Origin: a virus
DNA length: 25,384 nucleotides
Strand: one strand, 5' to 3'
IMG/VR virus record: IMGVR_UViG_3300006753_000061
Coordinates: 1 to 25,384 of that record
Shown: positions 4,661 to 24,193 of the stretch, one piece after another
How positions within the stretch are numbered: the first letter of the stretch is position 1
How the letters are laid out: each line of letters begins with the position of its first letter
Notes under the pieces: generated by a model
Database searches by the model: none
What the model saw: only the letters and a program-made list of their open reading frames with translations
Told to the model about the DNA's origin: nothing
Position numbers and translations under genes: made by a program

Positions 4661-6358
4661 ATGCCTGACCAATCCTTCCGCGACTATTACCAGCGGCGGC
4701 TGAGTGATCTTAAGAAAGATCAGTCTAGCTTCCGCCCCCACTGGAAAGAGATATCGGAGAATATACAGCCTCGGCGCGGGCGCTTCGATAACACCGATGT
4801 CAACAAAGGCACCAAGCGTCATAAAGCCATAATCAATAGCGCTGGCACTCAAGCTCTGCACACGGCCCAGGCGGGGTTGTTTGCTGGCGTCATGTCGCCT
4901 ACCCGTCCTTGGTTCGATCTCGCTACTCCTGATCCCGGCCTCATGCAGTTTATGCCGGTGAAGGTTTGGCTGAAGCAAGTCGCTCAGCAGATGCGTGGCA
5001 TCTTCAACGCCGGTAATCTCTATACGATGGCCCCGGTGATGATCGGTGAAGTCCTCATGTTCGCCACGGGTTGCATGACCCACGTGGACGACGAGGAGAA
5101 CTTGGCCCGCTTCTACACTCATACGGCGGGCAGCTATTACATTTCCCAAGACGATAAGTTTCAGGTCAACACGCTCGCCCGCGAGTATATGATGTCGGCT
5201 GAGCAGATGGCCTTGGAGTTTACGGACGGTAAAGATTTGAGCAAGCTCAGCGTTGCCGTCCGCAATGCTCTCAGTACCAATCAGCTAGGCGCGATGTTCT
5301 CGGTTGTCCATTTCATTGAACCTAATAACGACTTCAGGCCGCATAATCCTTTATCCAAATTTAAGCCGTTTGTTTCGGTAAAGTATGAACCTGGACATGA
5401 AAACAAGGACATGATCCTGTCGAAGAAGGGTTTCGATGACTTCCCCGTTTATGCTCCTCGCTGGGGTGTTACGGGCGAGGATGTCTACGGCACCGATTGC
5501 CCCGGCATGACCACGCTGGGGGATGTGAAGCAGCTTCAGATCATGGAGAAGCGGAAAGCCCAAGCTATCGATAAGCAAGTCAATCCTCCGCTATCTGCTC
5601 CTCCCTCCGTGCGTAACACTCCCATCACGGGTCTTCCTGGTGGGCTGAACGTATACGATGGCGGCAGCGGGCAGAAGATCGAAAGCTTGTATCAGGTCAA
5701 TCTTCCTCTGGATCATTTGACGAATGATATGGATCGCGTCGAGCGAAGGATCGATGAGGCTTTCTTCGTTGATCTCTTCCTGGCCATCTCCAACATGGAG
5801 GGCATCCAGCCCCGCAATCAGCTTGAACTTTCGGAGCGGAATGCGGAACGGCTGCTTCAGCTTGGTCCGGTGCTTGAGCGGATGCAGGGTGAGTTCCTTG
5901 ATCCGTTGATTGCCCGCACTTTCAACCAGATGGTGAAGGCTGAGTTGGTGCCGGAAGCGCCGCCTGAGATACAGGGTTCTCCGTTGAAGGTCGAATATAT
6001 CTCCTCCTTGGCCCAGGCGCAGCGGTCAGTGGATACTAGAGGCATCGATAGGTTGACGGAGTTTATCGCGGGCCTCAAGGGTGCCGGGATGTCAGACGGC
6101 AAGAAGTTCGATGGGGATCGGGCCATCCAGAAGTATTCTGATCTCCTTGGCACGCCGCCTGAGTTGATGGTGGACGATAAGGTGATCGTTCAGCAAAGAC
6201 AGCATGAGGCCCGACAGCAAGCCCAGGCGGCTAATCTTGAAGCTGCTGAGCAAGCTGGCAGGGCTGCGGCGAGTGCCGGTCAGGTTGATCTGGAAGGCGA
6301 TAATCTCGTATCGCGAGCGGTAAACGTAGGGGCGCAACGGGCAGCGCAAGGACAATAG
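4661..6358 (+). CDS. portal protein (T7 gp8-like head-tail connector), 565 aa
   Basis: The portal forms the dodecameric ring at one capsid vertex through which DNA enters and leaves. The sequence fits the podovirus head-to-tail connector family (Pfam Head_tail_conn). It has an N-terminal YYQRRLSDLKKDQSSFRPHWKEIS-type start and a VMSPTRPWFDL segment near 77-87. The hallmark PRWGVTGEDVYG (about 266-277) is followed by GMTTLGDVKQLQ and KQVNPPL. The C-terminal part has RNQLELSERNAERLLQLGPV and a Gln/Ala-rich helical tail that probably lines the barrel. Its length is close to T7 gp8 (about 536). It begins 2 bases after the KKSLLGR gene. A TCACGTGA-centred palindrome follows 2 bases after its stop. 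Confidence 0.92.
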   Translation: MPDQSFRDYYQRRLSDLKKDQSSFRPHWKEISENIQPRRGRFDNTDVNKGTKRHKAIINSAGTQALHTAQAGLFAGVMSPTRPWFDLATPDPGLMQFMPVKVWLKQVAQQMRGIFNAGNLYTMAPVMIGEVLMFATGCMTHVDDEENLARFYTHTAGSYYISQDDKFQVNTLAREYMMSAEQMALEFTDGKDLSKLSVAVRNALSTNQLGAMFSVVHFIEPNNDFRPHNPLSKFKPFVSVKYEPGHENKDMILSKKGFDDFPVYAPRWGVTGEDVYGTDCPGMTTLGDVKQLQIMEKRKAQAIDKQVNPPLSAPPSVRNTPITGLPGGLNVYDGGSGQKIESLYQVNLPLDHLTNDMDRVERRIDEAFFVDLFLAISNMEGIQPRNQLELSERNAERLLQLGPVLERMQGEFLDPLIARTFNQMVKAELVPEAPPEIQGSPLKVEYISSLAQAQRSVDTRGIDRLTEFIAGLKGAGMSDGKKFDGDRAIQKYSDLLGTPPELMVDDKVIVQQRQHEARQQAQAANLEAAEQAGRAAASAGQVDLEGDNLVSRAVNVGAQRAAQGQ

Positions 6359-6360
6359 GG

Positions 6361-6372
6361 AGTCACGTGACT
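6361..6372. promoter_or_regulatory. 12-base perfect palindrome AGTCACGTGACT after the portal gene
   Basis: AGTCACGTGACT begins 2 bases after the portal stop and is preceded by GGG. The same 12-mer occurs at 10681-10692, again preceded by GAGGG or AGGG and again in a gene junction. A third TCACGTGA-centred palindrome lies at 6768-6779. It could be a protein-binding operator or an RNA hairpin; no T-run follows. Confidence 0.5.
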
Positions 6373-6382
6373 ACGGATTGAC

Positions 6383-6478
6383 ATGATAACTGTAGGCGCG
6401 GCTGACGCTACCGTTGCGATTGGTTATTACAAAGTTAGAGAAGGGTTGGACTTTGAGGCTTGGGACGCAATAAGATAG
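6383..6478 (+). CDS. possible 31-aa small protein in the portal/Bbp19 gap
   Basis: A frame opens at ATG 6383 and ends at TAG 6476-6478, just before the ribosome-binding site of the next gene. The product begins MITVGAADATVAIGYYKVRE and ends in an acidic helix-like stretch. It fills nearly all of the otherwise empty 129-base gap, which argues for a real gene. Against it, no clear Shine-Dalgarno sequence precedes the ATG and the product is very short. I recognise no family. Confidence 0.35.
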   Translation: MITVGAADATVAIGYYKVREGLDFEAWDAIR

Positions 6479-6487
6479 GAGGGGAAG

Positions 6488-6799
6488 ATGGACGTAGGTG
6501 ACCAGAAACAAGTTACACATAAGAAGGCGAAGCATAAGCTGGACCGGCAACAGGAGCTTGAGGAGCTAAAGGATTTACTTTCCAGGCCAGGGGGCAGGGC
6601 TTTTATCTGGCGGTTGATAACCGAATGTAAGGTGACGACCTTCGGATATTGTGGAGACAACAACCAACTGAACCACCAAGAAGGACAGCGGCGAGTAGGC
6701 GGATGGGTGATTGCAGAGCTTGACGCAGCAGACCCAAAAGCTTATTCTAAAATGAGGGATGAAGCCGTATCACGTGATATAGCCAAAGAGAGGAATTGA
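6488..6799 (+). CDS. Bbp19-like phage protein, 103 aa
   Basis: The pattern fits the Bbp19-like family of podovirus head-region proteins, whose exact function is not established. Visible hallmarks are a helical start (QQELEELKDLLSRP), GGRAFIWRL at 35-43, a cysteine-containing middle (CKVTTFGYCGDNNQ), the EGQRRVGGWV box at 65-74, and a closing PKAYSKMRDEA helix. The gene has a strong AGGAGGGG site before ATG 6488. Its TGA lies 2 bases before the scaffold start. In BPP-1-like phages it also sits between portal and capsid genes. A perfect TATCACGTGATA palindrome lies inside its last codons. Confidence 0.8.
   Translation: MDVGDQKQVTHKKAKHKLDRQQELEELKDLLSRPGGRAFIWRLITECKVTTFGYCGDNNQLNHQEGQRRVGGWVIAELDAADPKAYSKMRDEAVSRDIAKERN
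6768..6779. promoter_or_regulatory. 12-base perfect palindrome TATCACGTGATA near a gene junction
   Basis: This palindrome ends 20 bases before the stop of the Bbp19-like gene and 22 bases before the scaffold start. Its core TCACGTGA is the same eight bases found in the junction palindromes at 6361-6372 and 10676-10697. Because it overlaps codons, its presence could be chance. Confidence 0.35.
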
Positions 6800-6801
6800 C
6801 C

Positions 6802-7479
6802 ATGGCTGAAGAAGAGATTTTAGGGTCTGGCGGGGAAGCCGAAGAAGATACGGCAGAGCCGCAGGGGACCACGACATTAACCGCAGAGGAAGGCGGTGAC
6901 AAGGACGATGTAAAAGCCACCGACGATGGTGGTGAAGCGAAGACTGCCGACGACACCGACGATACATCCAAGGACGGCATAGCCGACACGGATAAGGACG
7001 GCGCACCTTCTGAGTATGCAGACTTTACCCTGCCTAAAGGTACTGAGATTGACAAGGAAGTTCTGGGCGAATTTCATGGCGTGCTGAAAGATATCGGCGC
7101 AACCCAGGAAAAAGCTCAAGCGATGGTCGATCTGTACATGAAGAACATGGGCAAAGCTTTCGCAAATCAGGAGAAGCAGTGGGCAGATATCCAGGCCAAG
7201 TGGTCAGAGACTGCTGAGAACGATGAAGAGTATGGCAAGGGTGCATACGACAAGAGTATGGTCGTCGCCCGCAGTGCCATGCGCGAGATTGGCGGTCCCT
7301 CATTGGCCAAGGCACTGGAAGAGACAGGGATGGGAAACCACCCTGAGTTCATACGGTTCTTTTACCGTGTCGGAAAAGCAATCGGAGAGGATAACTTCAG
7401 CTTTGGTAAGGCGCACGCTCCCGGTCAGAAATCGACTGCGGAACGTCTATTCCCCAACCAGGGCAAGGAAGCAGCTTAA
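6802..7479 (+). CDS. capsid scaffold / assembly protein candidate, 225 aa
   Basis: The scaffold guides coat protein into a closed prohead and then leaves. Position (directly before the major capsid gene) and composition fit: the first 75 residues are strongly acidic and low in complexity. YADFTLPKGTEIDKEVLGEF follows, typical of phage scaffolds, then a helical middle (ATQEKAQAMVDLYMKNMGKAF, split by short turns) and a C-terminal GNHPEFIRFFYRVGKAIGED. The extreme C-terminus is polar (STAERLFPNQGKEAA), where coat-binding regions usually lie. I start at ATG 6802, with AGAGAGG upstream, rather than the in-frame TTG at 6796. It is separated from the capsid gene by 40 bases containing a short inverted repeat. 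Confidence 0.8.
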   Translation: MAEEEILGSGGEAEEDTAEPQGTTTLTAEEGGDKDDVKATDDGGEAKTADDTDDTSKDGIADTDKDGAPSEYADFTLPKGTEIDKEVLGEFHGVLKDIGATQEKAQAMVDLYMKNMGKAFANQEKQWADIQAKWSETAENDEEYGKGAYDKSMVVARSAMREIGGPSLAKALEETGMGNHPEFIRFFYRVGKAIGEDNFSFGKAHAPGQKSTAERLFPNQGKEAA

Positions 7480-7509
7480 TTTCTCTTCATCACCCCTAAA
7501 CGAGAGAAA
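7480..7509 (+). promoter_or_regulatory. inverted repeat that could hide the capsid-gene ribosome-binding site
   Basis: TTTCTCT at 7480-7486 is exactly complementary to AGAGAAA at 7503-7509, with a 16-base loop. The right arm overlaps the Shine-Dalgarno sequence (GAGAAAGG) of the major capsid gene at 7520. In RNA this 7-pair stem could tune capsid translation. It is AT-rich and of modest stability. Confidence 0.3.
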
Positions 7510-7519
7510 GGTTTGAACA

Positions 7520-11371: not shown

Positions 11372-14300
11372 ATGGGGACTTTCATTCAACCATCTTTCGC
11401 TAAGGGAGAATTCGGCCCTGCTCTCTATGGGCGTGTAGATACGGCTGCATATAGCGTTGCTGCTCGTACTCTTCTTAATGGCGTTGTCCACGCTCACGGC
11501 GGCTTCAGCAATCGCGCTGGAACGAAGTTTATCTGCCCTGTTAAAGATCATACAAATCTTCCTGTCTTGATCGATTTCCAGTTCAAGGCGACGGATACCT
11601 ATATCATCGAAATGGGCAACCTCTACATGAGGTTTATCCGCAACGATGCCCAGGTATTGGAAGCTGCTGACACGATTAACGCCGCCACGAAAGCGGACCC
11701 CTGCGTGATTACCACTTCAGCGGCGCATGGATGGTCTACCGGCGATCACATCTATATTACGGGTGTGACGGGGATGACGGAGTTGAATAATCGGTTCTTC
11801 CATGTTACGGCTGATAGCGGGACTACTGCCTCGTTGCGAAGTGTTTACGATGGGGGAACGGCGACGATAGATAGCTCAGCTTTTGGCACCTTCAGCGGCA
11901 CGGCTTCTGCGGGAAAAGTTTATGAAGTCACCACCACTTATGCCCAAGCTGATCTCGCTGAACTGAAGTGGACCCAATCAGCCGATACCATTACGGTTAC
12001 ACATCCGACATATCCGGTGCGGGAGATCACGCGAACTGACCATAATGCCTGGACAATCGCAGACGCTACTTTTGCGCCCAGCATTGCCGGTCCTACGGCG
12101 GTGACGGTAGCAGTCAACGGCGCAAACAATAATGAGGTCTGGAAGTATAAGATCACGGCGGTCAAGGCGGAAACATTTGAGGAGAGCCTCGCGGGTGTAA
12201 CGGCTACGCTTCCTAACACCGTATCGGCGGCAACGAATGCTAATCCGGTAGTCGTCACTTCCGTAGCCCACGGGCTAGTAACGGGAGATGAAGTTGAAAT
12301 CACCGGCTTCACGGAAATGACAGAAGTTAATGATCGTCGTTTTTATGTCACTAAAGTTGATGCTGATAACTTTTCTTTAGATGGGGAAGATGGTTCTGGA
12401 TACACGGCGGAAAGCACGGGGGGTACTAGCAAAGTTTTTGCTACGCATGATGTCTCCGGTACGGAAGCTGCGCCTACGGGGACGGCGATCCCTGACAATA
12501 CGATCACTTGGACGGCAGTGACGGGCGCGACAAAATATGCGGTGTACAGGGCGAAGGGTGGCAGCGGGCGCTACGGCTTCCTGGCGGAAACCACGGAGCT
12601 TACCTATACGGACGATACAACGGCGTTGACGCTGACCGATCTGGATGTGGTGCCGCCTACCTATCGTGACCCCTTCAGGATCGCTGGCGAGTATCCTGGG
12701 GCGGTTGGGTACTATCAGCAGCGGCGAGTGTTCGGCGGGTCTACTAATCTTCCTGATACCTCCGACTATTCACGCACCGGTCACCAAGACAACTTCAGCA
12801 AATCTGACCCCTTGCAAGCGGATGATGCTATCAGGGCTACGCTGAACGCTCGTAGGGTGAACCAGATCAGGCATTATATCGCGAGAACTGATCTTATCGT
12901 TCTCACGGACGGGTCAGAATGGCGGGTCAATGCGGGCGACAACTCGGGCTTCGCGGCGGACACGTTGAAGCAAGAGCCTCAGACGTACTGGGGGGCGAAC
13001 CATCTGCCGCCCATCGTTATCGGTCAGACGATCCTCTATATGCAAGAGAATAATATTGCGGTGCGGTCCCTCGGATATCAGCTTAGCCTGGATGGTTATA
13101 CCGGCACCGATTTGACGTTGCTTGCGCCCCACATCTTCAAGGAGACAACGGGCGTATCTTGGGGTTACACCCGCTCTCCTGATCCGGTAACGCACATAGT
13201 ACTATCGGATGGTACTGCGGCGGTATTCACCTTCAACCAAGAGCAAGAGGTTATCGCTTGGTCCCGCTGGAATACCCGCAATGGCCTATTCAAGTGGTGC
13301 GCTGCCATGCGGCCCTCGTCTACGGAAGTGAATGACGCCGCTTACTTTGTGGTTGAGCGTATTATCAATAGCAATACGGTAGGTTTCATTGAGCGGGTCC
13401 ATAGTCGGCGCTTCGAAGACGTACAGGATGCCTTTTTCGTGGATAGCGGGCTTAGCTTGGATACCAGCTTCGCCATCTCTGCCGCCACGGCTGCGGACCC
13501 CTGCGTTATCACCACGGCTGTTCACGGGCTATCGGACGGAGACTACATCGATATCGAAGGGATAGATTGGATGCCTCAGTACACGGCCAACGAGGTCAAG
13601 ACAAATCCCGATCAGCTTAACGGGCGGCGTTACATCGTGGCCGACAGCACGGCGACGACGATTGATCTAGTCAACACGGAAAGTCCTATTCCTATTACGG
13701 GGATTTCGGAAACTGATCCTATGGTGGTGACGGCCCCCGCTCATGGTCTTACGTCTGGGGATATCATTGCCTTTAATGGTGTCGCGGGGATGACGGAAGC
13801 CAACAATAACATTTACAAGGTGTCCGCAAACAACAACACGACTGATACGTTTGAGGTCACAAATACTAGCGGTGTAGATATCGACGGCACGAGCGGGTTT
13901 ACCACCTATACCAACGGCGGCAACGTCTACCATGGGGAGGACGGGTCTTCGTTCAAGGCTTACGTGCGTAATGGCAAGATACGCCAAGCAGTCACCAGCA
14001 TCACCGGCCTCAATCACCTTGAGGGCGAGAGCGTGATGATCCTGGCCAACGGCAACGTAGTCACCGGCAAGTCTGTATCTGCGGGAGCGCTGACGTTGGA
14101 TGAGCGAGCAAGCCGGGTCCATATTGGGCTGGAATATAATTCCGATCTTGAGACTTTGGATGTGGAAGCGCCTGACGGTACGATCCAGGGCAAGCCGAAG
14201 AAGATACCGAAAGTGGTGGTGCGGTTTGAGAAATCTCGTGGCTTGCTGATTGGACCCACGGAAGATAATCTCGTGGAGATGAAGCAGCGGGACGAGGAGA

Positions 14301-14452
14301 AGCTGGGTGAGGCAACGAGGCTGCTGACCGGCGACAAGGAGATCGTAATCAAGCCTTCTTGGAACTCCAACGGGCGTATCTTCTTACGGCAGAATAATCC
14401 GCTGCCGATGACGATCCTGGCGGTCATTCCTGATATAGAAGTGGGGGACTGA
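11372..14452 (+). CDS. tail tubular protein B (T7 gp12-like nozzle) with four E1-FCCH-like repeats, 1026 aa
   Basis: The hexameric nozzle closes the podovirus tail and holds the fibres. The family start is clear: IQPSFAKGEFGPALYGRVD, then HAHGGFSNRAGTKFI. The central propeller part has GYYQQRRVFGGSTN, RTGHQDNFSKSDPLQ, TDGSEWRVN and NNIAVRSLGYQ. At 1026 residues it is longer than T7 gp12 (794). The extra length largely holds four related modules beginning near residues 102, 284, 702 and 775, each with xDPxVxTxxxHGxxxGDxxxIxGxxxM. They resemble the FCCH domain often annotated in phage tail proteins. Modules 1 and 3 share a 26-base DNA stretch with only three differences. Start ATG 11372 follows AGAGGG; its TGA overlaps the next ATG. 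Confidence 0.88.
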   Translation: MGTFIQPSFAKGEFGPALYGRVDTAAYSVAARTLLNGVVHAHGGFSNRAGTKFICPVKDHTNLPVLIDFQFKATDTYIIEMGNLYMRFIRNDAQVLEAADTINAATKADPCVITTSAAHGWSTGDHIYITGVTGMTELNNRFFHVTADSGTTASLRSVYDGGTATIDSSAFGTFSGTASAGKVYEVTTTYAQADLAELKWTQSADTITVTHPTYPVREITRTDHNAWTIADATFAPSIAGPTAVTVAVNGANNNEVWKYKITAVKAETFEESLAGVTATLPNTVSAATNANPVVVTSVAHGLVTGDEVEITGFTEMTEVNDRRFYVTKVDADNFSLDGEDGSGYTAESTGGTSKVFATHDVSGTEAAPTGTAIPDNTITWTAVTGATKYAVYRAKGGSGRYGFLAETTELTYTDDTTALTLTDLDVVPPTYRDPFRIAGEYPGAVGYYQQRRVFGGSTNLPDTSDYSRTGHQDNFSKSDPLQADDAIRATLNARRVNQIRHYIARTDLIVLTDGSEWRVNAGDNSGFAADTLKQEPQTYWGANHLPPIVIGQTILYMQENNIAVRSLGYQLSLDGYTGTDLTLLAPHIFKETTGVSWGYTRSPDPVTHIVLSDGTAAVFTFNQEQEVIAWSRWNTRNGLFKWCAAMRPSSTEVNDAAYFVVERIINSNTVGFIERVHSRRFEDVQDAFFVDSGLSLDTSFAISAATAADPCVITTAVHGLSDGDYIDIEGIDWMPQYTANEVKTNPDQLNGRRYIVADSTATTIDLVNTESPIPITGISETDPMVVTAPAHGLTSGDIIAFNGVAGMTEANNNIYKVSANNNTTDTFEVTNTSGVDIDGTSGFTTYTNGGNVYHGEDGSSFKAYVRNGKIRQAVTSITGLNHLEGESVMILANGNVVTGKSVSAGALTLDERASRVHIGLEYNSDLETLDVEAPDGTIQGKPKKIPKVVVRFEKSRGLLIGPTEDNLVEMKQRDEEKLGEATRLLTGDKEIVIKPSWNSNGRIFLRQNNPLPMTILAVIPDIEVGD

Positions 14453-15701: not shown

Positions 15702-18700
15702 ATGACAATTGATGTTCCACGAGTGCAAGCAAGTGATATACGGCCTCATGCTAGCCAGTTGCCAGGGGATAATGAAATCCCTGATCTGGATGCTGGCGCA
15801 AAAGGGTTGCAACAGTTTGGAGAGACGATTACGGGTGCTGGTAGCCAGCTAGCTCAAGTTGGCGCTCGCTTGCAGCATGAAGATGAGCAGCGGGAAGTAC
15901 AAGCGAGAATGCTGGGGTTTCGTCAGACGTTGAATGATTATACTTACGGAAATAAAGAGAAAGGGCTTCCTGGGTGGAAAAATTTAACGGGTCAACAATA
16001 TATAGAGTACGAGAAAGCGCTTAGAGGGGGGCTTAAAAAAGCTAGTCGGGAGCTTTCAGCGCAAATTACTAATCCTGTAGTTCTCCAAGCTGTTAAAGAG
16101 CGGACAGCTATCAAGCGGGAAGAGATGTATTCGGCGTATGCGGAAGGCAGCATTGAACAGCGTACAGTCGCAAAACAAGTTACTCGATTAGCTGATATTG
16201 AGTTTACGAAGAAAGAAGCTGCGCTTCAACCATTTAAGGTTAACCCCGATGGTACACTAGATTTTACTTCTACAGATCAAAAGATTTTTCAAGTTACAGA
16301 TCAAGTAGCACAGCTTGCAAATACAGCAAATTTATCTAAGCCTCGATATGAAGGTTTGCTTGAATTACATATATCGCAGTTGATAGCGGGAGCAGTTGAT
16401 ACGAGATTAGCTGGTGATAATCCTGATGTGGTTGGGGCGAAGGCACTTTTTGAGCGATATAAAAGTATGCTTGATATCGATACTCGTAATAAACTTGATA
16501 ATAGTATTGCATCTAGCAAAATTGATGCGACTGTGCAGAGTATCGTAAAAGAAGCTATGTCTGAAGGGACGCCTAAAGAACGTAGGGATGAAGGTATACG
16601 ACTTTCACGATTACCTGGGGTTTCTCCAGATGTTGAAGAAAAAGTTTTGTTAAGTATACGGAAACGAAATGCTGATGAAGCTAGGGATAAAGAAACGGCT
16701 GAAGCTGATGCAGTTGAGTTTGCTGATAAATGGGTAGCAGATAAGAAAAATCCAAATGATCTTCCTAAACATATTAGAGATTTGGTTAAACAAAGTGGGC
16801 ATTTTCCACAGTTGTTAAAAGATTTCACTAGTATATTAAATAATGTGAGCCTTAATCCTGATCCAAAGTTCAGCGATAGAATGTGGGATACGGTATATAA
16901 TAATCCAGAGCAAGCGAAAAATATTAAAATCTTTGATCCAAAGGTTAAAGCTGCAGCAGCAAATGAGTGGACAGATTTGAAGATTGCTGTTCTTGGTTTA
17001 AGGAAGGATGATGTTACTGCACAAAAAGCGTTAGCTAAAGAAGATAAAGAGCGTGTTCGTAAAAGCCAATTGCTTGCTCCTATGATGGTGGCTGCAAAAG
17101 ATCGGATGGAAGAGGCAAACTATAAGGCTAAAGATAGGGTTATCCTTCGCCGTGGATTAGGAGAAATAGTAGCAGATATTGTCCGTCAGAATCCTAATGT
17201 TAAGTTTAGCGAGCTAGATGTTGATAAGCTTATTGAAGATGCGATGGATATTGTTGAGCGTAAGGGTGAACTATTTTATGATCCTGATATTACTAAAGCT
17301 CAGCTTGCTACAGATAATCTTTTAGGAAAAGCTGTATATGATAATTTAGAAGAATTCTATGAGAAGACATCTATACAAGAGGATATTCCTCTAGCTAGAG
17401 TGCAAACAATTGGTGAGTATCGTCGGAAGCATAATTTGTCTTTGACTAGTGTAGCTATTCGGCTTGATAATGAAAGAATACTTAAGCTGGAAGCACAAAA
17501 GAAGGTTGTTGACGCTGTTAGGAAAGGACCGCCTGTAGTAGTTGTGCCAGAGCCTACGCCTGATGTAGTGCTCGCTCCTGAAGTATCGTTTGATGCAGAG
17601 GGGGATGGGTTTGATGACGCTACAGCAAAAGCTCACGGGCTTAAACGAGATGCTACGGGTCACTTAGGTTCTGTTGTTCCTGTGACTGAAGCACAAATAG
17701 CGGAATTAGGTGTGCCTGAAGGTAGTTTTATGCTACTCAAGGGTAAAAAGCATCCGACTTTTGATAAAGCTGTAGCTGCTGAAGAAGCAAGAGGATTTAA
17801 GGTACAAAAAATTGGCGATAGATATTTTTCAATTCCTATTTCTGATGTATCGTTTGAACCATCAGAAGAGACTGATGCAGAGGTAGCTGCTGTCGAAGCT
17901 TTAGGAGCTACAAAAGCAGAGGTAGCTGCTGTTAAAACTGCAACAATGGATATTACACCTGTTGTTGTTGCTCCTAAGCTAACGGCGGCTCAGAATAGGG
18001 AAGCTGAAGAAAAAGCATTAAAAAGGGCGTTAGCAAAAGAACGTTTAGGGGAGACAGTTTCTGTTCCTCAGTTGCAAGCTATGATTAATGAGGAACAGAA
18101 GAAAGCTCAAGCTAACCTTGATGCTGAAGCTAAAGCTGAAGCGGTTCGGGCTAAAGTGATTGAAGATTTTAAGAAAGTAAATAAAGCTTTCACAAAGCGT
18201 TTGCAAAAACATTTAGAAGAAAGCGAAGGGGCATCTGAGGCTAAACAAAAGAAAATTAAAGCAGATCGGGATAAAGCACTTGAAGACTTTAAGAAAGTAA
18301 ATAAAGCTTTCACAGAGCGTTTGCAAAAGCACTTAAAAGGAGGCAAGGCTACAACAGCGCTTGCGGTTCGTCTGAAGAAAAAAACGCCCGTTTCTCCGCG
18401 CACGAAACTTACTCAAACAGAATTAGCAGAGGTAGATACGGTGGTAGAGAAAGCTAAGCAAACTACGATAGCTACGGTGAAAGCAGGTCTTGCAGTTAGC
18501 GAAGGAGCTAGTGGGTCTAGTATTACGGGAGATAAAAAGACATTAAAATGGGGTTTAACGCAAGAGCGCAAAGATGAGATGATAGCGAAAGCTGGCCGAG
18601 AGTTATCTGATGATGAAGCTATAAATATGGTGCTTGAGGAAGATTATAAAATTGTTAGCGAAGGTATCCCCGGCTTCTTGTTATTACCTGAAGTTGCCCA

Positions 18701-19043
18701 AGTTGCAATCCTCGATATGACTTACAATATTGGGAATAAGTGGGTAACAGCTATAGGATTTAACTTGCTTAAAACGCAGATCAAAGAAGGTAATCTCATT
18801 CGTGCAATGAAAGAAACTTTAGATACTGCCAATGTGGGTAAACCTGCGCAATCTATGAAAGGCATAGCTAAACGGCGAGCAGAGAAATATAACGATGCAA
18901 TTTCCGGGGATCAGAAGATTGTGTCTGTTAAGCAATTTGATAATGGACGTATCCGTTATACGTTCCAAGACGGCGGTTTTAAAGAATATACTCCCTCTGG
19001 CGGAAAGCATCCTGATAGTAAAGCTGGTACTGTGAGTATCTAA
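15702..19043 (+). CDS. large internal virion protein (gp15 position) with C-terminal lysozyme-like domain, 1113 aa
   Basis: Position and N-terminal pattern (DIRPHASQLPGDNEIPDLD, then LQQFGETITGAGSQLAQVGA) fit the third ejection protein of T7-like phages. Most of the chain is charged and helical. The middle carries acidic, proline-containing linkers and a tandem 40-residue repeat (about 811-878). From about residue 930 a lysozyme-like domain follows: SEGASGSSITGDKKTLKWGL, LLPEVAQVAILDMTYNIGN (near 995-1013), then GIAKRRAEKYNDAI. The YNIG and RRAE elements recall GH24 muramidases. The catalytic E/D/T spacing is degenerate (E936, D946, T949 as candidates), so activity is uncertain. T7 places its transglycosylase in gp16 instead. 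The gene is clearly AT-richer than its neighbours. Start ATG 15702 follows AAGGA. Confidence 0.75.
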   Translation: MTIDVPRVQASDIRPHASQLPGDNEIPDLDAGAKGLQQFGETITGAGSQLAQVGARLQHEDEQREVQARMLGFRQTLNDYTYGNKEKGLPGWKNLTGQQYIEYEKALRGGLKKASRELSAQITNPVVLQAVKERTAIKREEMYSAYAEGSIEQRTVAKQVTRLADIEFTKKEAALQPFKVNPDGTLDFTSTDQKIFQVTDQVAQLANTANLSKPRYEGLLELHISQLIAGAVDTRLAGDNPDVVGAKALFERYKSMLDIDTRNKLDNSIASSKIDATVQSIVKEAMSEGTPKERRDEGIRLSRLPGVSPDVEEKVLLSIRKRNADEARDKETAEADAVEFADKWVADKKNPNDLPKHIRDLVKQSGHFPQLLKDFTSILNNVSLNPDPKFSDRMWDTVYNNPEQAKNIKIFDPKVKAAAANEWTDLKIAVLGLRKDDVTAQKALAKEDKERVRKSQLLAPMMVAAKDRMEEANYKAKDRVILRRGLGEIVADIVRQNPNVKFSELDVDKLIEDAMDIVERKGELFYDPDITKAQLATDNLLGKAVYDNLEEFYEKTSIQEDIPLARVQTIGEYRRKHNLSLTSVAIRLDNERILKLEAQKKVVDAVRKGPPVVVVPEPTPDVVLAPEVSFDAEGDGFDDATAKAHGLKRDATGHLGSVVPVTEAQIAELGVPEGSFMLLKGKKHPTFDKAVAAEEARGFKVQKIGDRYFSIPISDVSFEPSEETDAEVAAVEALGATKAEVAAVKTATMDITPVVVAPKLTAAQNREAEEKALKRALAKERLGETVSVPQLQAMINEEQKKAQANLDAEAKAEAVRAKVIEDFKKVNKAFTKRLQKHLEESEGASEAKQKKIKADRDKALEDFKKVNKAFTERLQKHLKGGKATTALAVRLKKKTPVSPRTKLTQTELAEVDTVVEKAKQTTIATVKAGLAVSEGASGSSITGDKKTLKWGLTQERKDEMIAKAGRELSDDEAINMVLEEDYKIVSEGIPGFLLLPEVAQVAILDMTYNIGNKWVTAIGFNLLKTQIKEGNLIRAMKETLDTANVGKPAQSMKGIAKRRAEKYNDAISGDQKIVSVKQFDNGRIRYTFQDGGFKEYTPSGGKHPDSKAGTVSI
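18131..18335 (+). repeat. tandem 120-base (40-codon) repeat inside the 1113-aa protein
   Basis: The best-conserved part, 18162-18215, recurs at 18282-18335 with four or five differences in 54 bases. Both encode DFKKVNKAFTxRLQKHL. Weaker similarity extends upstream (xRxKxxxxDFKK). The offset is exactly 120 bases, so the frame is kept. The unit looks like an amphipathic helix. Confidence 0.7.
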
Positions 19044-19045
19044 TT

Positions 19046-22000
19046 ATGGCCGAACCTAATATTGGTGGTATTAAAGTTCCATTGTCCCCTGGAGAGGAAG
19101 CGACTAATACTCTTCTGGGGATAACTGCGCCATCTGTCGAAGCGGTTCCGCAGGGTGATCTTCCTACTCTTCCGATCCAAGGCACCAGCATAGGAGACAC
19201 TGCTAGGCGAGCCAGCGAAACTACTCCTAAAGCGAAGGCTTATGATCTTGAACTTGGTAATGTGTTGGGTCTTAACCCAAATAATATTACCGACAGTAAT
19301 CGTAAGCGTTTCGATCAGCAACGCATTCGTCAGAATATTGAACTTCAGTCGGATGCAGCCCCAGTTACGCAAGGCTATATGAAAGCGGATCAAGATTTGA
19401 CGGCGTTGCTCTCCGGTAATGTTAAAAATGTGGCTGATGGCGAGCGAGCAGTTCAAGGCTTGACTTTCGATGGTGCGCTAAGCAATGGCGTCAGCTTGCT
19501 GAAGAGCTTGGGCTGGCGTTTCCTAGAGGTTGGTGGTGAGCTTGTTGACGAGGATTTTGAAGCCTTCGCTCAGCGCGAGGCAGAGCTTGAGGAAGCTAGG
19601 GCATCCGTGCGTGGCCATAAGCAAGAGTTCAGCGGCATCTTTGAGGGGACGCTGGGGGAGCAAGCGGAAAAGTTCTTTATCTGGGCTAAGCAGACGGCTG
19701 GCGAGGGCATCCCTCTCATGGCTCCGTCCCTGGCGGGTGGCGCTGCTGGCTTCGGCGTAGGGCTGGCTGTCGGTGGTCCCGCTGCGCCCCTGACGGCTAC
19801 CATAGGGGCTATGCTGGGGGCTTTCATTCCTAGTTTCATCTTGGGCGTAGGTGAGGTTCAGCAAAGCATAAAATCCCGCGATAAGAATGTTGAAGCTCCC
19901 CTTGTTGCTCTTGGCGGCGGCGTCATTATCGGCGCTTTGGATAGCCTTCTCGCGGGCAAGTTAGGGACCATTGCTCGCAAGGCTGTTGGGCGTGAAGCTG
20001 CGGAGGAAATGTACCAGAAGATCGCCTTTAAGGTGGCTGCGATGAAGGTGGCTTCAGAGACTGCTGGGGGTCTGACGATTGAAGGTATAACGGAAGGTGC
20101 GCAGTTTATCGTCAGCGAAACTTTTGCAGCGCACGCTACTGATACCGAAATTGACGCAGAGCAATTCACAAAAGAGCTTATCGAAAATATCGCGGCGGGT
20201 ATGTTGTTGGGTGCTGGGGCAACGTCTACCACTAGCACGGGCGGACAAATTGTTCGCGCTCGCCGGGAAAAGCGGGCGATGGACGAGAGCAATCGCTTGG
20301 AGAAGGAAGGGGAACTGAAGGGGCTAAGCGCGGTGAAAGCGGCGGAACTGAAGACCGCTCAGCTACGGGCGCAGGGTGTGGATAGCGTGTTCCTCCCGAT
20401 GGATGTCCTTCTGCGGTACGCTCGCTCCCAGGCTGATCCTGTAGAGGCGCTAGCAAACTTAGGTGTATCTGAGGCGTTAGCTGGGGTCCATAACATGGCA
20501 ACTATAACTGTCGATGTTAAAGGAATACACGGCGCTTCAGATCGAGCGGTAGAAGTAGTTAAAAGCCCAACCTTTCAAACTGCGAAAAGGCTACTTACAC
20601 AATCACAATTCAAACGCTTGAGGGGGACTAAAAATCTTCAGACCGGAGAATTGTTTATCTGGGATGCAGCCCTAGCTACTCACGAAGAGATGAACCATCT
20701 GCTAGGAGGACAAGCTTTTAGAGAGGGGGCTGCTGGAAATGGGCCAGTTTTTAGGGCAAGTGATTTTGCAAACCCTACGCAAGAGTTTAGAGATTTCTTT
20801 CAAGCTAACGCCACCGGCAAAGTAGAGCTATCCCTGGAAGCTTTCGCTGAGCATCTCCACGGTACCGAAGCCTACGATTTGATCGCTCCCCACCTGACTA
20901 TCACCAAGGACACTGTTTCGCTGGCTGAAGCTGTCGAGGAAGCCTTTATCGAAGAAGAAGACATTGAAAATTATGAAGCTGATCTGGAAGCTTACGATGC
21001 TGCCGAAGACCTGAAGGAGCGAGTGCAAGAGACAATCCAGAAGGTGAAAGCGAAGCCCAAGTCAGGCCACCAGATTATCGATGACGCTGGCCGGGATGTG
21101 GAAGTCATACTCGACACGCTGATCCAGAACGTTCAAGAGCGTAAGGGCGGCACCGATGAAATCGTTCGCACGGGTAGGCTGACGAAGCTAGATAGCCAGA
21201 TAAGCGAACAAGACAGGATTATAGCTAACGAGCAAACGAACCTTGAACGGGCGACAAAGGCGAAGACCGCTACTTCGGCTATCCAGAAGCGCTTGAATGC
21301 AGCTATTGCTAAGCGGGATGATTTCATAGAGCAGCAGACAGCGCTAGAGTTGCCTGAAGTTGTAGTTGGTGTTGGGGAAGGTGTTGAGGCTGAGTTTAGG
21401 GCGCAGCAAGCGGAGGATTTGCGTCCTACAGCTATAGAAATCAAAACGAAGACACTGCAAGATTTTGAGGTAAAGATTACTGCTGAAATAATCCGTGAGG
21501 TTCGCAAGGCATTTAGGGCTGGCCTTGATGTGGGGAAAGACTTAATAAAGCGAAAGAAGTCTTTGAAGAAGGAGATACGTGCTGCGCTTAAGAAGACAGG
21601 CGTTAAGCTTACGAAGACTAGCCAAATCGGCGTACAATTGGATCGCTTGAACAACGCCCCTACGGATAAGGCGCTGACGAAGCTGCTCCCCGTCGTGCAG
21701 TCGAGGATAGCGGTGATCGTGGGGACTGAGCGCCGGAAGCAACTTGAGGCTGCGATTAAGAAGGTTGTAGCGGGAACTGCGTCTAAGATACAAGGAGGAA
21801 GGAAGGTTGGCTTCTTCGGCCCTGGTGACGATGCAGCAAAAGCGCAAGAAGTTATGGACATGGCCAGGACAACGATCAACTTGGGAGTAGGGGTAGCGGA
21901 AGAACGCCTAGAGAAGATATTGTCTAGTAAGGAGCTACCGTCCACTGAGGGGCTGCTAGAGCGGCAGTTGCTGGGTATCGCAGCCCACCGTCCTGAAGCT

Positions 22001-24193
22001 GATAATGCGACTGCTGAGCAAGCCCTGCTTGACCTTCAGGAAATCAAACTGTTTGGGAAGGGGGCGGCGCTCAACAAGATCATGGCACGGCGCGATAGAG
22101 CGAACTTGGATGCTACGGAAGGCCGTGAGTTCACCACGCAGGGCAAGCCGGTGAAGGCGATGAATACCGTTGGCTTGTTCGCTCGTATGGGGCGGGGCTT
22201 GAGGGATTTCCGTGATGGGCTAGCGTCCATGCACAACGCCTGGGATGAAGTGCTGGATGACACCTTCAATAAGCTGGACGTAGATGCTCGTCGGCTGATT
22301 AAAAGCCTTCGCTTCACGAAGTACCTTCAGCGGGCTAAGGGAAGGATGCTGAAATGGGAGAAGGAGCTTAACGAGATTGGCTATACAGCTTTCGGTATCG
22401 AAGAAGGGAACTATCGGAAGTTGATGGATCGTCATCACAAGGATGCCCAGCGTATTGATTTTGGTGAGTTTGAAGATAAGAATGGAGATATCGTTAGACT
22501 GCAATATTCTCCCGCTAACATTAGGAAGCTTTGGATGGAGCGTCAAGACCCCACTATTCGGGATGTAGTAACAGACGTAGAAGGCAACGCTTTTACTGAC
22601 GAGATGATGAAAGCGATGTTTAACGTCTTGAACGACGATCCCACTCACTATGATTATGCTCTTGCACAACTTGCCTTTTACCGTAAGCTATACCCCCAAG
22701 TTAACGCAGTGCATCGTCGGGTCTACGGAGTAAATCTCCCCTTTAACGAGTTCTATAGCCCAATCCAGAGGGACAAGGGAGATACAGTTCAAGACGGCTC
22801 AAAAGATAGCTTCGGGGCGGATCGGGTCATAGCTGATGAGCAAACCTATCGTCGCTCTCTTCCTCCCGCACTGAAGAAACGTCTGCCGGGGGTGATTGCT
22901 CCTTTGAAGCGCCGTAGTGATATAGGCGCTATGCACCGTTATATGCACGACATGGCTCACTTCATTGAAACTACGGAGCAAGTCATGCACATGAAGAGTG
23001 TGTTCGCTAGCCGCCCCTTGCGTAAAGCTATTGAGGCAATGCACAGCAAGGCCAGGAATAAAGAGATCGATGAGTTCCTTGAGGACTTCGGCACCGGCTA
23101 TGCTGCCCGTGGGATCGTCGCGGAGCAATCTATCGCCATGTTCAACCGGCGCTTCTCGACTGCGGCTTTAGCCATCAAGCCCAGTATCGGCACCAAGCAG
23201 CTTGTGTCCTGGCTGGCCATGGCAGAGAACATCCCGGTGACGGACTTCATTAAGTCTCAGGCTGACTTTTTCAAGAACCCGAAGAAGAACATGAAAACAC
23301 TCTTTGAGCTTTCTGCCGCATTACAGGCGCGAGGGTCATCGATTGACTTTGAACTGGCCAAGATCGGATCGGAGAATGAGGAGATACTTCGCTGGCGGCA
23401 CAACCAGACCATGGAAGACCTGTTCTTCAAGTTCATTAAGCTGGGCGATAGGATGCCTATTTACGCTGGCGGCTGGGCTGTCTATCAGAATGCACTAAAG
23501 CAGGGTAAATCTCAGAAGCAAGCTATCGATGCGTTTGAAGATGCCATGAACAGCACGCAGCAGTCGGTGGATATCGATAAGATGTCCGCGCTTCAGCGGT
23601 CCAGCGCCATAGGCCGCACGCTCACCATGTTTATGACAGCGAGGATGGCCTTGCTGCGAGGGGAGATGAGGGCCATTCGTCAGGTCAGGCGGAAGAAGAT
23701 CAGCTATCGTGAGTTCGGCAAGCGCATGGCTATCTACCACTTCCTCATGCCTATGATGATCCAGTTCATAGCGAGTGGGTTCCGCTGGGATACGGATCGC
23801 CAGCTTGTGGCTGCGTTCATGGGGCAACTTAATAGCTTTGTTATCTTCGGGGACATCCTAGCCTGGGCGGCGACAAAGGCATTTACCGATGAGCCTGACC
23901 CCTGGCGTGAGGCAAACCAAATCCCAATGGCCCAAGTTTTTCAAGATATGATGGAAGGTGCATCTGATGCGCTAGCCCCAGGCGCTAGCGTAGAAGATAT
24001 GATGGAAGGTTTGTTTGAGATGGCTGATGCCATTGGCCTTGCTACTGGTAAGCCTATCGAGCAAACTCGTAACGCAATCGAAGGCGGATATAACCTTTTA
24101 GCGGAAGGTGAGATTGAGAAAGGTGTGTTGCAGCTTTGGGGATTATCGGAAGCAGTATCAGAGAAAGCAAGACGCGCTGACTTCGTAGAATAA
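19046..24193 (+). CDS. very large internal virion protein (gp16 position), 1715 aa
   Basis: Position after the gp15-like gene, size and composition fit the largest ejection protein, which in T7 (gp16, 1318 aa) helps build the DNA conduit across the host envelope. Hydrophobic segments lie near residues 225-270 (PLMAPSLAGGAAGFGVGLAV, then IGAMLGAFIPSFILGVG) and 285-305. Coiled-coil-like and Lys/Arg/Glu-rich parts fill about 640-960. The C-terminal third has FNRRFSTAALAIKPSIGTKQ, NSTQQSVDIDKMSALQRSSA and IGRTLTMFMTARMALLRGEM, a pattern I recall from giant phage polyvalent and ejection proteins. Two more hydrophobic stretches follow. I see no lysozyme motif. An AT-rich segment (about 480-587) looks inserted. 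The ribosome site is weak, so coupling to the upstream gene is likely. Confidence 0.75.
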   Translation: MAEPNIGGIKVPLSPGEEATNTLLGITAPSVEAVPQGDLPTLPIQGTSIGDTARRASETTPKAKAYDLELGNVLGLNPNNITDSNRKRFDQQRIRQNIELQSDAAPVTQGYMKADQDLTALLSGNVKNVADGERAVQGLTFDGALSNGVSLLKSLGWRFLEVGGELVDEDFEAFAQREAELEEARASVRGHKQEFSGIFEGTLGEQAEKFFIWAKQTAGEGIPLMAPSLAGGAAGFGVGLAVGGPAAPLTATIGAMLGAFIPSFILGVGEVQQSIKSRDKNVEAPLVALGGGVIIGALDSLLAGKLGTIARKAVGREAAEEMYQKIAFKVAAMKVASETAGGLTIEGITEGAQFIVSETFAAHATDTEIDAEQFTKELIENIAAGMLLGAGATSTTSTGGQIVRARREKRAMDESNRLEKEGELKGLSAVKAAELKTAQLRAQGVDSVFLPMDVLLRYARSQADPVEALANLGVSEALAGVHNMATITVDVKGIHGASDRAVEVVKSPTFQTAKRLLTQSQFKRLRGTKNLQTGELFIWDAALATHEEMNHLLGGQAFREGAAGNGPVFRASDFANPTQEFRDFFQANATGKVELSLEAFAEHLHGTEAYDLIAPHLTITKDTVSLAEAVEEAFIEEEDIENYEADLEAYDAAEDLKERVQETIQKVKAKPKSGHQIIDDAGRDVEVILDTLIQNVQERKGGTDEIVRTGRLTKLDSQISEQDRIIANEQTNLERATKAKTATSAIQKRLNAAIAKRDDFIEQQTALELPEVVVGVGEGVEAEFRAQQAEDLRPTAIEIKTKTLQDFEVKITAEIIREVRKAFRAGLDVGKDLIKRKKSLKKEIRAALKKTGVKLTKTSQIGVQLDRLNNAPTDKALTKLLPVVQSRIAVIVGTERRKQLEAAIKKVVAGTASKIQGGRKVGFFGPGDDAAKAQEVMDMARTTINLGVGVAEERLEKILSSKELPSTEGLLERQLLGIAAHRPEADNATAEQALLDLQEIKLFGKGAALNKIMARRDRANLDATEGREFTTQGKPVKAMNTVGLFARMGRGLRDFRDGLASMHNAWDEVLDDTFNKLDVDARRLIKSLRFTKYLQRAKGRMLKWEKELNEIGYTAFGIEEGNYRKLMDRHHKDAQRIDFGEFEDKNGDIVRLQYSPANIRKLWMERQDPTIRDVVTDVEGNAFTDEMMKAMFNVLNDDPTHYDYALAQLAFYRKLYPQVNAVHRRVYGVNLPFNEFYSPIQRDKGDTVQDGSKDSFGADRVIADEQTYRRSLPPALKKRLPGVIAPLKRRSDIGAMHRYMHDMAHFIETTEQVMHMKSVFASRPLRKAIEAMHSKARNKEIDEFLEDFGTGYAARGIVAEQSIAMFNRRFSTAALAIKPSIGTKQLVSWLAMAENIPVTDFIKSQADFFKNPKKNMKTLFELSAALQARGSSIDFELAKIGSENEEILRWRHNQTMEDLFFKFIKLGDRMPIYAGGWAVYQNALKQGKSQKQAIDAFEDAMNSTQQSVDIDKMSALQRSSAIGRTLTMFMTARMALLRGEMRAIRQVRRKKISYREFGKRMAIYHFLMPMMIQFIASGFRWDTDRQLVAAFMGQLNSFVIFGDILAWAATKAFTDEPDPWREANQIPMAQVFQDMMEGASDALAPGASVEDMMEGLFEMADAIGLATGKPIEQTRNAIEGGYNLLAEGEIEKGVLQLWGLSEAVSEKARRADFVE
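20483..20803 (+). other. candidate inserted domain within the 1715-aa protein
   Basis: Residues about 480-587 interrupt what reads as a continuous segment: LGVSEALA before it and ANATGKVELSLEAFAEHLHG after it. The stretch has lower G+C than its flanks (24/60 at 20581-20640, against 38/60 at 20341-20400 and 34/60 at 20881-20940). It carries a compact motif, LFIWDAALATHEEMNHLLGG, after a basic QFKRLRGTKNLQTG. The W-D-A and A-T-H-E-E residues look conserved-domain-like, but I cannot name the family. Confidence 0.45.

Follow-up and report, generated by a model that had tools for sequence, protein, structure and literature searches.

The WDA-H module, a small recurring phage domain, as a probable in-frame insertion in the ejection protein of a short-tailed phage

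The polyvalent proteins described by Iyer et al. (2017) contain 40 LPD domains of unknown function and are predicted to be injected, according to excerpts of that paper (PMC5512222). Podovirus ejection proteins are described as exchanging domains, e.g. the peptidoglycan-hydrolase domain of T7 gp16 (excerpts of PMC8954989), and internal virion genes as showing a higher mosaicism (excerpts of PMC10386132). The locus analyzed here displays similarities to these systems. Like the domains of polyvalent proteins in the excerpted text (PMC5512222), the module it contains is a small domain that is reused together with ART, 2H, LPD23 and portal domains, and it is of the same kind as the LPD domains. 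Unlike polyvalent proteins, the 1715 amino acid protein that carries it has no other known effector domain, and the module matches no Pfam LPD model. The likeness to the T7 gp16 type of exchange, as far as the excerpts describe it (PMC8954989), is the relocation of a functional domain among ejection proteins. However, the T7 gp16 type concerns an end domain of known enzyme activity, and the window shows an uncharacterised domain within a conserved segment.

The window is the whole 25,384-base virus record IMGVR_UViG_3300006753_000061 of IMG/VR. Gene content was assigned by PHROG and Pfam profile matches and is as follows:

In the window: small terminase gene (PF03592)
In the window: head-to-tail connector gene (PF12236)
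In the window: GP7-type major capsid protein gene (PF20911)
11372–14452: tail protein of 1026 aa; PHROG 376 tail protein is also named in the window
In the window: internal virion protein genes (PHROGs 308 and 418)
15702–19043: gene of 1113 aa just upstream of the 1715 aa gene, with an endolysin-like end (PHROG 31077)
19046–24193, + strand: ejection (internal virion) protein gene of 1715 aa, from the open reading frame, PHROG matches and gene order
After the 1715 aa gene: start of the tail-fibre gene (profile matches)

This gene set is assigned here to a short-tailed phage of the epsilon15/BPP-1 type, a designation that is our own reading. The 1026 aa tail protein (11372–14452) displays three stretches that match E1_FCCH (PF16190, E-value = 6.5e-25). 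Another IMG/VR contig (L005, positions 6283–7518) has a best tail-protein segment that is 100% identical to that of the window, and this contig stops before the ejection gene. The 1113 aa gene (15702–19043) has a G+C content of 41.1%, compared with 50%–57% in the other genes measured, and may be a recombinant arrival.

The 1715 aa sequence is similar to PHROG 6958, a virion structural protein, at positions 143–413 (E-value = 7.4e-20) and to PHROG 9880 at positions 1292–1565. It is termed an ejection protein because of these matches and the gene order. No Pfam family is found above the cut-off in the 1715 aa protein, and no known effector domain is found there. Since the gene is located between the internal virion protein genes and the tail-fibre gene, joint delivery of the protein and the DNA into the host is plausible.

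A single full-length homologue was found, a 1561 aa protein in the phage relative L007, which is 26%–29% identical to the 1715 aa protein (26% in the best local alignment). Twelve ejection proteins were compared, with chain lengths of 1280–3125 aa: those of the window, L007, L010 and L011 and those of eight fetched phage records, seven of which were reached via the tail protein and one more via the ejection protein itself. A search of phages with the gene DNA gave no relative. The 1715 aa protein found none in plasmids and one weak exception only in phages, and the L007 segment gave nothing useful in phages. In viral contigs, neither the insert region nor the whole 1715 aa protein gave a useful match; the L007 protein, and both proteins aligned, found only L007's own contig. 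Two further searches gave an empty result, which carries no weight in the absence of a known positive: that of 369 Gammaproteobacteria with the ejection-protein alignment, and that of 15 records, which overlooked records in which a profile does find the segment.

Among the fetched records is that of Limnohabitans phage DC33 (L074, PQ492659.1), which gives Inoviridae as the family. The phage contains a podovirus-type tail protein and a 3125 aa ejection protein with the conserved segment described below. Because these two proteins are present, the Inoviridae label looks wrong.

The features of the interrupted region of the 1715 aa gene are:

20363–20482, + strand: left half of the interrupted segment, residues 440–479 (phmmer match to L007, ending at residue 477)
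20473–20482, + strand: inverted repeat, left arm, 10 bp, perfect, on the border of the insert
20483–20803, + strand: inserted domain, residues 480–586 (gap in relatives, AlphaFold2 model, low GC3)
20516–20707, + strand: WDA-H module core, residues 491–554, with P508, R526, W539, D540, A541 and H546 (profile match 491–554)
20803–20812, − strand: inverted repeat, right arm, 10 bp, perfect, on the border of the insert
20807–20923, + strand: right half of the interrupted segment, residues 588–626 (profile of the uninterrupted segment)

Alignment of the 1715 aa protein with the L007 protein by phmmer pairs positions 370–477 with 364–470 and then positions 592–1707 with 481–1558. Thus 114 residues of the 1715 aa protein face 10 residues in L007. 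The left-flank piece is weak when it is scored alone (1.9 bits), and the left edge of the insert is ambiguous in MAFFT, which also misplaces L007.

A profile of the uninterrupted segment was built from L007 and the Vibrio phages MZH0603 and 1.185.O. It shows the segment unbroken at positions 434–508 of Bbp10 of BPP-1 (i-E-value = 1.5e-7) and at positions 465–534 of the DC33 protein (i-E-value = 1.9e-5), and it matches the 1715 aa protein at positions 588–626 (i-E-value = 1.2e-5 among the 12 proteins). The segment is therefore whole in five relatives, i.e. the three profile sources and BPP-1 and DC33, which are not profile sources. Scores for ctRVW222 (5.0 bits), PfDIW6 (4.8 bits) and vir555 (0.5 bits) are unconvincing, and ct8d5349, L010 and L011 are not listed in the search with this profile. 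The insert is present in one of the 12 ejection proteins, that of the window, and the 11 others are without it.

The earlier note, which was made from the window sequence, had proposed that the flanks read on smoothly without the insert. The phmmer alignment to L007 and the whole segment in five relatives bear this out, with the left piece weak. The alignment with homologues that it had called for places residues 480–586 in a gap in L007, BPP-1, MZH0603, 1.185.O and DC33, all of which are distant. Its central claim, a domain insertion, is upheld, and a separate fold is predicted (AlphaFold2 pLDDT 84.9, pTM 0.78). Residues 480–586 are very probably an in-frame insertion, because the domain is absent from the relatives, folds alone in the prediction and belongs to an independent family.

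Inteins begin with Cys or Ser and end with His-Asn, followed by Cys, Ser or Thr. The insert starts at Gly480 and ends at Gln586, which is followed by Ala587. These terminal residues do not fit an intein.

The nucleotide composition of the insert agrees with the lower G+C content that had been noted for these approximately 107 residues. The insert has 44.9% G+C, against 51.9% in the whole coding sequence, 59.0% in the 300 nt to its left and 52.0% to its right; at third codon positions the value (GC3) is 33.6%, against 54.8% in the gene. Across the coding sequence, 2.8% of the 1608 in-frame windows that match the insert in length are as low in G+C and 1.2% as low in GC3, and the codon-usage score of the insert is at the 4.9th percentile within the coding sequence. 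The insert is not the deepest dip in G+C, as a stretch at offset 3306 of the coding sequence (22352–22672) falls to 43.6%. A 14-nt direct repeat with two mismatches is found inside the insert at 20711–20724 and 20780–20793, 69 nt apart.

The 10-bp inverted repeat was noticed after the fact, and its positions agree with the homology breakpoints at residues 477 and 588. Its inner AGCT is also a direct repeat, 324 nt apart. The 10-bp word is absent elsewhere in the window, where shuffling expects 0.02, and 369 of 200,000 random pairs of places within the window show an equivalent inverted repeat with the same slack. Inverted repeats of at least 10 nt flank 4 of 41 copies of the module, compared with 2.7% of 600 mismatched left/right control pairs, and the mean length of the flanking inverted repeats is 7.8 in module copies and 7.3 in the controls. 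The module family as a whole thus does not share the border repeat, and a mobile element common to the family was rejected. The repeat at the borders in the window may be due to chance or local history. The module is very unlikely to represent a novel type of injected anti-host-defence domain which arrived as a discrete domain-coding cassette, where 320 bp and the repeated 4-bp AGCT give 108 in-frame codons amid an otherwise 16-bp perfect palindrome.

The sequence WDAALATHEE of the insert, described earlier as a compact motif of its own, proves to be the signature of a recurring phage module, termed here the WDA-H module. A profile built without the insert finds it at residues 498–554 among the 12 ejection proteins (E-value = 3.6e-16); with the same module profile, the best E-value in 2000 shuffles of the segment is 0.31. 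The near-invariant residues P508, R526, W539, A541 and H546 are all present in the window copy. In 41 distinct copies (43 less two near-duplicates) the conservation is P 41/41, R 40/41, H 40/41, W 39/41, A 37/41 and N 37/40; the copies were aligned to the model and the counts lean towards it.

Searches of phages and plasmids with the insert (tblastn for plasmids) gave E-values of 3 or more in every case. The plasmid match at an E-value of 4 is a 2775 aa protein of Pseudomonas mendocina, which has an LPD23 domain along with five stretches of ART-PolyVal. This protein, which was not used in the profile, is confirmed by it as a carrier of the module (E-value = 2.9e-12). A second L053 open reading frame, also outside the profile, matches at E-value = 3.1e-12. 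A strict DNA pattern of the motif gave 12 stretches, of which two, both phage proteins, are members. A looser pattern was modelled on the window and the members known at first, and the 26 viral-contig stretches it gave are therefore motif-selected; all are members by the profile built from them. None of 13 stretches found with the motif pattern in genome contigs is a member, and some WD40-like proteins there score through a GDLYVWDA stretch alone. The plasmid copy and the L054 copy gave no useful match in phages. No Pfam or PHROGs family covers the members, no PDB sequence family matches them convincingly, and NCBIfam gives one chance-level match to the insert. A literature search for "WDA motif" and phage found no paper, and no description of the WDA-H domain was found in the literature searched, which is no proof that it is undescribed.

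The module is present in 21 of 23 records searched, most of which were picked because they have it; L007 and L011, both phage relatives, lack it. Five or six copies each are found in virus records of 347, 561 and 608 kb, partly as single open reading frames of 143–164 aa, and single-module open reading frames overall are 138–164 aa in length. In the 347-kb record, one open reading frame (L035, positions 3–1808) displays four copies in tandem. The N-terminal stretch before these four modules looks ParB-like by its motif. Brevundimonas phages Domovoi (E-value = 7.4e-13; single-module protein USN14882.1) and Kabachok (E-value = 8.1e-13) encode the module in a small protein whose gene is next to that of a helicase, and Brevundimonas phage Papperlapapp has a weak tblastn match only. 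The module is rare in cellular genomes: among 369 Gammaproteobacteria one has it, and among 289 Alphaproteobacteria there are two matches, both weak and one with an internal stop.

Several module proteins contain other domains. Portal domains are found in L039 and L040, DUF7178 in L040 and L042, and a 2H phosphoesterase in the large module proteins of L020, L025/L030, L033 and L047. ART-PolyVal gives a strong match in L015 and one below the cut-off in L030, and LPD23 is above the cut-off in L015 and L051 and below it in L048. The 2H module proteins of L025/L030, L033 and L020 show a sub-threshold match to Acb1 (anti-CBASS). Ten proteins encoded next to the module were scanned with PHROGs, and four gave a match. 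Two of these, a DNA ejection protein and a terminase, are neighbours in L042, one in L048 is a tail-fibre protein, and one in L036 is an endolysin.

The AlphaFold2 model of 20477–20803, computed with 28 family rows, has a pLDDT of 84.9 and a pTM of 0.78, and that of the stand-alone L046 protein a pLDDT of 73.7 and a pTM of 0.65. The core of about 60 residues has the predicted order strand-strand-helix-strand-strand-helix-strand. This order is alike in the two models, which were not superposed. The models support the insert as an independent, self-contained folding domain. At an E-value of 0.001 or better, Foldseek gives no match in PDB for either model or in BFVD for the insert model. The best VIA-align results are Z = 3.6 for the insert model (4.1 Å, 82 residues) and Z = 3.1 for the L046 model (5.2 Å, 88 residues).

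NFACT-R proteins (CCDC25, RqcH, Rqc2 and FBPS) recur as weak VIA-align matches of the two models, with Z = 2.3–3.5, rmsd 3.1–5.8 and 62–93 residues; Z values of this size may reflect only a common arrangement. A relation by profile was rejected, as hhalign gives a probability of 0.1% against NFACT-R_1 (31 sequences). In our reading of the model, the order of strands and helices also resembles that of ParB/sulfiredoxin. Here again the relation by profile was rejected (hhalign 0.3% with ParB_N, 13 sequences, against 0.2% for a GNAT control). ParB/sulfiredoxin is absent from the VIA-align lists of both models, and such an absence rules nothing out. The module may still have a distant fold in common with ParB/sulfiredoxin or NFACT-R. 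ART-PolyVal sequences were sought in 36 genomes, one of which gave a match, below the cut-off. None of 28 module members matches PF18760, and membership in ART-PolyVal was rejected. The LPD models in Pfam, which may not cover all 40 LPDs, match none of the 28 members either.

The preferred explanation is that a self-contained domain entered a loop of the conserved segment in an epsilon15/BPP-1-type ejection protein. The domain would travel with the ejection protein and end up in the host. After delivery it would act as a binding domain for a small ligand, a nucleic acid or a host protein, and the same binding module would be reused across many phage proteins. As a whole, i.e. an inserted module of a recurring phage family that is delivered and binds, this explanation has about an even chance of being correct. 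Counted against it are the weak left-flank match, the 26%–29% identity of the nearest homologue, which bears on the date of the insertion, the lack of a significant fold match, and the copies in single open reading frames without an evident virion link.

A role as a binding accessory domain, taken alone, falls slightly short of an even chance. It is the most likely role because the module occurs singly, in tandem arrays and next to a wide range of other domains. A binding unit is favored by the array of four copies in L035 and by the single-module open reading frames. The company of portal, ART-PolyVal, 2H and LPD23 domains, together with the DNA ejection protein and terminase near L042, favors delivery. 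A catalytic function of the near-invariant R and H is just as conceivable.

A catalytic R and H would suit an injected anti-defence or host-takeover effector, e.g. an enzyme in which both residues act on a nucleotide signal, an RNA or a protein of the host. This is the role suggested in the earlier note, and it appears unlikely. Each of the two residues is kept in 40 of 41 copies, and the module is located beside ART-PolyVal, the weakly Acb1-like 2H phosphoesterase and other domains predicted to be injected in the excerpts cited (PMC5512222). However, the module matches no enzyme family and has no significant fold match, a tandem of four copies is unusual for enzymes, and the tandem and stand-alone copies fit binding at least equally well. 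What speaks for the effector comes down to the company of the module, and association differs from function.

A neutral or structural decoration, in which the insert would be no more than a folded loop that alters capsid or channel packing and is idle in the host, is rather improbable. The size of ejection proteins does vary widely (1280–3125 aa in the 12 compared), such proteins exchange domains between phages in the excerpts of PMC8954989, and the 1715 aa protein has no known effector domain in Pfam. However, the window copy keeps all the signature residues, and the family is conserved across unrelated protein contexts, in agreement with selection for a function of the module as such. An ancestral origin of the domain, with loss from the relatives in place of a gain in the window, is hardly credible: the searches gave distant relatives and no close homologue of the gene, but the domain is missing in all five relatives that have the segment, the GC3 of the insert differs from the rest of the gene, and an inverted repeat is found on both borders.

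With the window copy, the range of a small domain of near-invariant signature, already seen in portal fusions, polyvalent proteins and jumbo phages, extends to an ejection protein. Naming the WDA-H module offers an entry point to many phage proteins that still lack characterisation. The ejection protein appears able to take in a foreign domain, and this bears on how phages load proteins for delivery.
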